Shown here: positions 8,028-54,440 of the stretch, piece by piece | Layout of the letters: every line of letters begins with the position of its first letter | Numbering within the stretch: the first letter of the stretch is position 1 | Origin: Candidatus Sumerlaea chitinivorans | Lineage (GTDB): Bacteria; Sumerlaeota; Sumerlaeia; Sumerlaeales; Sumerlaeaceae | Length of the DNA: 64,000 nt | Reading direction: 5' to 3' | Assembly: GCA_003290465.1 (NCBI GenBank) | Contig: CP030759.1 | Coordinates: forward strand, 2,430,572-2,494,571 | Notes under the pieces: generated by a model | Database searches by the model: none | Seen by the model: the letters and a program-made list of their open reading frames with translations, nothing else | What the model was told of the DNA's origin: nothing | Position numbers and translations under genes: made by a program

Positions 8028-8120
8028 ATGGCAACCGCCAAGAAGCCAGCCGCCAAGAAGGCCACCACCAAAAAGGCCGCAAAGCCGGCTGCAAAGAAGA
8101 CCGCAGCAAAGAAGAAATAA
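8028..8120 (+). CDS. 30-residue Lys/Ala-rich histone H1-like peptide
   Basis: A tiny gene encoding 30 residues composed almost only of Lys, Ala, Thr and Pro. It carries irregular repeats of AAKK, KKPAAKKA and TTKKAAKPAA and ends in KKK. The composition is that of the C-terminal tail of histone H1 and of bacterial H1-like proteins (Chlamydia Hc1/Hc2, AlgP tail), which bind DNA non-specifically; here only the tail exists. It is very likely a real gene: AGAGGTGAG precedes the ATG at good spacing, a TTGACA-18-AATTAT promoter lies upstream and a hairpin follows the stop. Nucleic-acid binding is an inference from charge (13 Lys of 30). Confidence 0.7.
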   Translation: MATAKKPAAKKATTKKAAKPAAKKTAAKKK

Positions 8121-8160
8121 CACCGGGTAAGCCTTGCCCCGGGTGCCAAAATGTTCTTTT
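8121..8160 (+). terminator. Hairpin after the Lys/Ala-rich peptide gene
   Basis: Immediately after the stop, CACCGGGTAAG pairs with CTTGCCC and GGTG (8121-8145, with a two-base bulge and one G-T pair), followed by a mixed T-rich stretch (ATGTTCTTTTG). It is a plausible intrinsic terminator. Confidence 0.45.
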
Positions 8161-53270: not shown

Positions 53271-53891
53271 TCAGTCAGCATCCGGAGATTCCGGAACGGC
53301 AGCAGGTCCACTCCCGCTCCCACCTGCATCCTCAAGCGGTGAAGTAGTAGGACTTAGGACCCCCGCAAGCAGATCATCCACCTCTTGCTTAATTGCAGCC
53401 AGCTCCTCGTCTGCCAATTGGACCATTTCCACACAGACTTCCTCATCCGTGATCGTGTTGCGGCAGATGATGCGCTCGCCTCGGCCGGGCCCTTCAGGTG
53501 GCTCCGTTCGTAACCACCGCAAAACCTGATATCGGATCAGCAAATGCGCGAGAAAACACAGCCTTGCCGCATGGGCTGCGCGGTCCTCGTGGTAAAAATA
53601 GTCGAAGTAAGCCGCAAGGCGAGCATTTCGTTCTTTGCGATTTTGAACTTTACGCGGCTTCGGTGGATCGCGCCGAGCCAGCCAGAATCCCACATAATTG
53701 CGCGAATCCAGTCGATCCCAACAGGTTGGGCAATAGTCGCGCCGCTGGGGGATTTCCTCCTCCCCCTCGCTTCCCTCCTCCGAGGGCAGCACCAAGACGG
53801 ACGGGTGCTTGCCCTGTTCGGCCAAAGGCGCTCCGCAAAGGACACACGTATTTTGCGGACGTGTGATCTTAAGATAAGATTCTCGATCCAT
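53271..53891 (-). CDS. Zinc-ribbon hypothetical protein
   Basis: 206 residues. The N-terminus has two Cys-x2-Cys knuckles (TCVLCGAP and YCPTCWDR, about 30 residues apart), a likely structural zinc site. A basic linker (PPKPRKVQNRKERNARLAAY), a helical middle and an acidic, Pro/Ser-rich tail follow. No family is recognised. The start at ATG 53891 is chosen because MDRESYLKITRPQN leads straight into the first knuckle. Monocistronic. Confidence 0.65.
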   Translation of the reverse strand: MDRESYLKITRPQNTCVLCGAPLAEQGKHPSVLVLPSEEGSEGEEEIPQRRDYCPTCWDRLDSRNYVGFWLARRDPPKPRKVQNRKERNARLAAYFDYFYHEDRAAHAARLCFLAHLLIRYQVLRWLRTEPPEGPGRGERIICRNTITDEEVCVEMVQLADEELAAIKQEVDDLLAGVLSPTTSPLEDAGGSGSGPAAVPESPDAD

Positions 53892-54277
53892 GTTACCCAA
53901 ACTCTTCCCTCTCGCCTTTGCAAAGTGCAAGCATTGGATCGTTACTTCCTATTGCCTCTGAGCGAAATGGGCAAGATGGGTCCCCAGTCGCCATCCGATT
54001 GGACCCATCCTTCATGGGCGGGCAGTTTTCATCGGATCGCCGACAATCGCCCAGGACCAATTCCGGATTGTTTCTATGAGATACGCTCAGATTCCCAAAA
54101 TACCCACATGAGGCATTTGGATACGCATACAATATATGGTCGCTTCCCGCCGTCTTCCGCGCTTTCGTGTTGGCACAAAGCAAAAACCAGACCGAAAACG
54201 ACAAAAAAATGAATTCCATGTATTTTTTTCTTTGACATGGCACAAAATGTGGTGATTTTCTCGGTCTCAGAGTTTTA
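53892..54277. other. AT-richer gene-free stretch
   Basis: Open frames exist on both strands but lack ribosome sites and family patterns. A TTGACA at 54232 has no good partner -10 box. The region leads into the candidate RNA at 54288-54440. Confidence 0.45.
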
Positions 54278-54283
54278 TATATT
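54278..54283 (+). promoter_or_regulatory. -10 box of the candidate structured RNA
   Basis: TATATT in the AT-rich run GTTTTATATATTGTG, five to six bases before a 6-bp hairpin. No good -35 was found at 16-18 bases spacing; TTGACA at 54232 is too far away. Weak support on its own. Confidence 0.3.
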
Positions 54284-54287
54284 GTGT

Positions 54288-54440
54288 GCAGGCGAAGCCT
54301 GCCCACCGGCAATTTTAGTTCTTTAGAAAAGTTTTTGGCACCCGGGGCGGCACCCATCGCGGGAAGTTATCCACAGCAGCTTCCCATGGTGGTTCCTTTT
54401 GACCATGTACAAGGGATTGTACTGTCCGCCCCCTTTTTTT
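54288..54440 (+). ncRNA. Candidate structured RNA with four-way junction and U-tract
   Basis: A 5' hairpin (GCAGGC 54288-54293 with GCCTGC 54297-54302) is followed by a closed junction. A 7-bp all-GC closing stem (GGGGCGG 54344-54350 with CCGCCCC 54426-54432) encloses three helices with no base between them: GGGAAG/CTTCCC (54361-54366, 54380-54385), ATGGT/ACCAT (54386-54390, 54402-54406) and GTACAA/TTGTAC (54407-54412, 54417-54422; loop GGGA). The closing stem is followed by C and seven T. This order fits either a small RNA ending in its own terminator or a leader element 315 bases before wecA. It matches no riboswitch known to me. The minus strand could fold likewise, but only the plus strand has the T run. 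Confidence 0.5.

Follow-up and report, generated by a model that had tools for sequence, protein, structure and literature searches.

A conserved small RNA of the Sumerlaeaceae and its probable pairing with the 3' region of a histone-H1-like mRNA

Here, we describe an RNA locus in Candidatus Sumerlaea chitinivorans, probably strain BY40, whose genome was the first of its phylum to be completed (PMC8092238). The window, i.e., the whole stretch of 64,000 nucleotides that was analysed, lies on a complete chromosome of 3.29 Mb. The locus (54278-54440, + strand) is intergenic, flanked on one side by a Cys-rich reading frame of the opposite strand and on the other by wecA, which is followed by cdd. 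Its features are as follows.

53271-53930, − strand: Cys-rich frame
54232-54253, + strand: upstream block TTGAC-N7-8-AAATRTGGT from the alignment, probably part of the promoter of the small RNA (sRNA), with a −35-like TTGACA
54278-54284, + strand: TATATTG box from the alignment, candidate −10 box or early transcribed element
54333-54348, + strand: invariant core UUUUGGCACCCGGGGC, the proposed seed, with perfect antisense complementarity to 8136-8151
54344-54352, + strand: 5' strand of P1 (GGGGCGGCA); helix 1, 98.5% of cells paired, two pairs with double changes
54354-54392, + strand: P2 arm, a long two-tier hairpin; in helices 2 and 3, all cells are paired (100%) and double changes occur in 15 of 16 pairs
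54393-54406, + strand: single-stranded linker, conserved UUUUGACC(C)A in the alignment
54407-54422, + strand: P3 hairpin UACAA-GGGM-UUGUA; 82% of cells paired, weak in genome G002
54423-54432, + strand: 3' strand of P1 (UGUCCGCCCC) with U54425 bulged, from the fold and the structural alignment
54434-54440, + strand: U7 tail after P1, an intrinsic-terminator-like 3' end (U6-8 in homologues)
54755, + strand: wecA, then cdd

The Cys-rich frame (CVLCGAPL...CPTCW) lies on the strand opposite to the sRNA in four genomes, has no Pfam match, and reads as an uncharacterised zinc-ribbon-like protein.

The initial annotation had called the region a candidate new structured RNA and had suggested a covariance search. 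A DNA search of 61 relatives returned four homologues, all from the same family (E values of 1e-9 to 4.5e-4), and a fifth, in G002, was found with a pattern of the RNA core. A covariance model was then built from six sequences with G003 left out, and this model picked up the G003 homologue as the seventh sequence (E 1.5e-16). Altogether, seven of the eight Sumerlaeaceae genomes contain one strong covariance-model match each. The RNA is present in all six family genomes with a completeness of at least 90%, and the eighth genome, which lacks a match, is 66% complete. Neither of two covariance models gave a convincing match in other families of the phylum Sumerlaeota. A pattern scan of 84,980 species (GTDB contigs) matched 17 contigs, of which only four, all from Sumerlaeota, had a strong model match; one Deltaproteobacterial contig (E 2e-4 to the model) was judged a chance match, and most of the others were read as coding sequence. 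At the gathering threshold, Rfam 15 matched nothing in the whole window, and at 54278-54440 there was no Rfam match even at E values up to 10; a plasmid search with the RNA was also negative. Bacterial SRP RNA (RF00169) was rejected as an identity, SRP RNA sitting at another genome position. The family-wide homologues, together with the compensatory changes, the conserved upstream block and the U6-8 end described below, support the initial call well. On this comparative evidence, we conclude that the small RNA encoded here is real, has not been described before, and is conserved throughout a single family, the Sumerlaeaceae. The same evidence argues well for the further proposal of a transcript of its own of ∼150 nt that would end near 54440.

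In the window, 54278-54440 folds better than its dinucleotide shuffles (z −2.77; 0 of 200 shuffles). The initial annotation had drawn this fold as a four-way junction, in which a closing stem GGGGCGG/CCGCCCC (54344-54350 with 54426-54432) encloses three helices (GGGAAG/CUUCCC, AUGGU/ACCAU, and GUACAA/UUGUAC) with zero bases between successive helices, preceded by a 5' hairpin (GCAGGC-GAA-GCCUGC) and a TATATT box. All of these pairings can be drawn where they were proposed, and the box is present at 54278. The seven T after the stem are also there; however, they do not follow it at once, since one C (54433) intervenes. The core in this arrangement has an energy of −32.1 kcal/mol compared with −40.1 kcal/mol for a fold with one long arm. 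The middle helix AUGGU/ACCAU has a pairing probability of ∼0.004 in the window, and across the homologues 57% of its cells are paired, a level reached by 127 of 500 shuffles; its bases overlap the base of P2. We rejected this helix as not conserved and no better than shuffles, and we also rejected a shifted version of it. Because the middle helix is unsupported, the four-way junction has to be replaced by a junction of three helices with a conserved single-stranded linker. The 5' hairpin of the window is likewise not conserved, and the z-scores of the leader scatter around zero across genomes.

The fold that the comparative data do support consists of the GC-rich P1 ending in U6-8, the long arm P2, and the small hairpin P3. 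In the structural alignment of seven sequences, 96% of the cells that make up P1, the arm, and P3 are paired. The initial annotation had also pointed to compensatory changes in relatives, and these were found: 20 of 32 pairs have double changes versus 9 in shuffles, and 0 of 500 shuffles reach the native value. When the partner was slid by one column as a control, pairing dropped to ∼50%. The double-change count leans towards the fold because P2 was aligned manually in view of the structure. The separate foldings of single genomes are free of that bias, and P2 alone folds into the same two-tier hairpin in each genome (z −1.6 to −6.4). The sequence of P2 differs in every genome, with almost nothing conserved, while the pairing is kept. 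P1 has the consensus GGGGCGGYA with URCCGCCC in the seven sequences, the linker common to them is UUUUGACCCA, and the loop of P3 is GGGC or GGGA with the GGG invariant.

The 5' core of the RNA is single-stranded and invariant (UUGGCACCCGGGGC), and no invariant stretch is longer than UUUGGCA[C/U]CCGGGGCGG. Apart from the sRNA locus itself, the window genome contains the complement of this stretch, CCGGGTGCCAAA, at a single place, just downstream of a short Lys/Ala-rich gene.

8028-8120, + strand: histone-H1-like (H1-like) Lys/Ala-rich gene (MATAKKPAAKKATTKKAAKPAAKKTAAKKK), proposed target mRNA, with the antisense site after its stop codon
8136-8151, + strand: antisense site GCCCCGGGTGCCAAAA, 15 nt downstream of the H1-like stop codon

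The H1-like protein has 30 aa in the window and 26-31 aa across five genomes (the window and loci L141, L144, L145, and L146). It has the form MATAKK...AKKK; its gene is preceded by AGAGGTGA or AGGTGA, and this start region is well conserved. The label "histone-H1-like" refers to amino-acid composition; Pfam HC2 scores far below its cut-off against the protein and gives a weak hint. In the window, ptsH (HPr) adjoins the gene on the other strand, and in G001 a longer K/A-rich frame directly precedes it.

In G000 (the window genome), G001, G003, G004, and G007, the orthologous H1-like gene is followed by the motif GCCCCGG[G/A]TGCCAA, 14-19 nt downstream of its stop codon. The target-site count covers these five genomes; no site was seen at an H1-like gene in G002 or G005, which lie outside the orthologue search. 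Three of the five loci (L144-L146) surfaced as weak matches to the sRNA model, by which the motif was selected for and the adjacent gene was not. Core and site are perfectly complementary over 14-16 nt in the five genomes, the site being 14 nt long in G001, G003, G004, and G007, and the 3' sequence around it has diverged among genomes. In G003, the sRNA reads GGCAUCC and the site CGGAUGCC, so that a C-G pair has become U-A; this matched double change counts as a single event. If the G003 site met the sRNAs of the other genomes, the 14-nt duplex would weaken from about −30 to −25.1 kcal/mol. Based on base composition, a given 16-mer is expected 0.003 times in the window genome, and given the ∼100 possible 16-mers of the RNA, the lone 16-nt match is only mildly surprising. 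A terminator coincidence as the source of this match was dropped once the orthologous gene of four further genomes had turned out to have the same site. The real evidence is that five genomes retain the site at this gene, together with one matched change. The mRNA site is also part of a local CCGGG/CCCGG hairpin, which could be conserved for its own sake. In G005, the one K/A-rich gene seen lacks the antisense site. Locus L055 of that genome (1501-1555) contains a longer K/A-rich HC2-like gene with a terminator, CCGGGGCGGAC-GAAAT-GTCCGCCCC, that resembles P1 of the sRNA in sense orientation and is probably only a strong terminator.

Altogether, these observations support that the sRNA probably regulates, or is regulated by, the H1-like mRNA. 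The main rival to regulation of this mRNA reverses the roles: the 3' region of the H1-like mRNA would be a sponge that titrates the sRNA, whose real targets would be other mRNAs. The site lies just past the stop codon of an mRNA that is very short and probably abundant, which fits this idea. Two further antisense sites also follow stop codons, that of superoxide dismutase in G005 and that of a gene for a 367-aa protein in G002; these sites could be additional sponges or targets specific to a lineage. However, no other conserved target was found, and UUUUGACCCAA, the only other segment searched for targets, had no excess of sites over the control. We consider this alternative unlikely.

A second alternative places the effect downstream of the site. 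Small lipoprotein-like frames (MRKRSKIARATGVLIAALLLGSCS... and similar) follow the H1-like gene and its site at L141 (after 5047), L144, L145, and L146, and the sRNA might act on such a gene by pairing ∼20 nt upstream of its start codon. The spacing would suit this, the frame starting ∼20-25 nt after the site in G001, G003, and G007 and somewhat further away in G004. However, the window genome lacks the frame after the site and yet retains the site intact and two bases longer, which makes an effect on the lipoprotein less probable still than a sponge.

In a third alternative, the shared 14-bp motif would be a DNA site for a protein that occurs in both loci by coincidence, and the RNA would function in some other way, e.g., as a structural or protein-binding RNA. 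Such a site looks alike whichever way it is oriented, and co-evolution with the protein could then account for the change in G003. On the other hand, the motif lies inside the transcribed part of the sRNA, where it overlaps P1, and past the end of the other gene. Moreover, it has the orientation that permits pairing in five of five genomes, these being orthologous sites and, thus, not independent. We regard a protein site as quite improbable.

Least of all do we favour a cis-acting leader or attenuator of wecA-cdd, the second of the two options (small RNA or leader) that the initial annotation had left side by side: wecA (Glycos_transf_4) does follow on the same strand in five of the seven genomes (G000, G001, G002, G003, and G007), but G004 and G005 keep the RNA without wecA, and elsewhere 130-315 nt without conservation separate the two, so that this reading, already contradicted by G004, is hardly tenable. 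In G004, a 2-oxoacid dehydrogenase acyltransferase gene lies beyond the 3' end of the RNA on the opposite strand, i.e., convergently, and in G005 the neighbours are a MutS2-like gene and an unknown gene. A fixed position upstream of wecA on the same strand, as for a riboswitch or leader, is thus lacking in both genomes. Because wecA is missing in two genomes, one of which has a convergent gene at the 3' end, we conclude that the RNA is not a leader, and "small RNA" is the better of the two options. The different neighbours in G004 and G005, the conserved upstream block, and the U6-8 end are those of a stand-alone intergenic gene.

The upstream block is present in exactly one copy per genome in five of the eight family genomes, always upstream of the RNA, compared with none in the control; a regulon sought through this block did not emerge, the block occurring only at the sRNA locus. 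The TATATTG box follows TTGAC by 44-46 nt in all seven genomes, as counted on the aligned sequences. No sigma-70 promoter with the normal spacing of 16-18 nt was found on the + strand. TTGACA may be a −35 box, or the promoter may depend on an activator and have TATATT as its −10 box. Upstream of both the sRNA (54220-54260) and the H1-like gene (8028), and likewise at L145 and L146, a T-rich tract precedes TTTGACA; this may reflect the same promoter type or co-regulation of the sRNA and the H1-like gene.

An Hfq gene is present in seven of the eight family genomes, and these are the same seven that carry the RNA. A tail of at least seven U is typical of Hfq-dependent sRNAs (PMC6582626); P1 is followed by U7 in the window and by unbroken runs of six to eight U in the homologues. 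We suggest that the RNA is probably a trans-acting, Hfq-assisted sRNA.

In the reading that we prefer, and to which we assign a probability of about 0.68, the locus encodes a family-specific trans-acting sRNA of ∼110-150 nt with its own promoter that is probably assisted by Hfq and pairs with the 3' region of the H1-like mRNA, thereby changing the fate of this mRNA. According to this model, the sRNA would be transcribed from its own promoter, and P1 together with the U tract would set its end. P1, the long P2 arm, and P3 would form a scaffold that exposes the invariant 5' segment UUUGGCACCC. Together with the first bases of P1 (GGGGC), this segment would form a duplex of 14-16 nt with the 3' untranslated region of the H1-like mRNA, probably with the aid of Hfq. 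The duplex would extend into the GGGGC of P1 and take the place of the local CCGGG/CCCGG hairpin in the mRNA. For the h1 message, the pairing may lead to decay or protection, or the mRNA may act as a sponge for the sRNA. More tentatively, and with the odds somewhat against it, we speculate that the new RNA family and the tiny histone-like mRNA form a lineage-wide two-part regulatory circuit for nucleoid proteins in a phylum with hardly any cultured members. In this circuit, each base change in the mRNA 3' end would be matched in the sRNA core through co-evolution, and the closing helix would serve both as terminator and as part of the pairing segment, so that pairing must open P1.

The papers found under the name of the phylum deal with metabolism and community surveys. 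If our interpretation is correct, this would be the first family-wide sRNA of Sumerlaeota with evolutionary evidence for its fold, its independence, and its target. The sRNA and the H1-like site would provide a concrete, mutually testable RNA-RNA pair for laboratory hosts. More generally, a weak folding signal in a single genome can become a defined RNA family with a target.

The closest parallels are the Hfq-dependent trans-encoded sRNAs of Gram-negative bacteria, such as SgrS, RyhB, and DsrA, with which the RNA shares a stand-alone intergenic gene, a length of ∼110-150 nt, the presence of Hfq in the genome, a conserved single-stranded segment complementary to an mRNA, and an intrinsic-terminator-like end with U6-8. 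In contrast to these sRNAs, it has no short hairpin as its terminator stem but uses the long-range helix that closes the whole core; the proposed site lies in a 3' region rather than at a ribosome-binding site, and Hfq binding is predicted. A long closing helix and the format of a small stable RNA recall 6S RNA (RF00013); however, the 6S model does not match the locus, and the true 6S RNA is located elsewhere in the same seven genomes, for which reason this identity was rejected. Pairing with an mRNA 3' region is shared with sponge and 3'UTR-binding pairs such as GadY-gadX and SroC. GadY is a cis-antisense RNA and SroC is cut from an mRNA; unlike both, the sRNA described here and the H1-like gene are encoded by loci that are 46 kb apart in the window.
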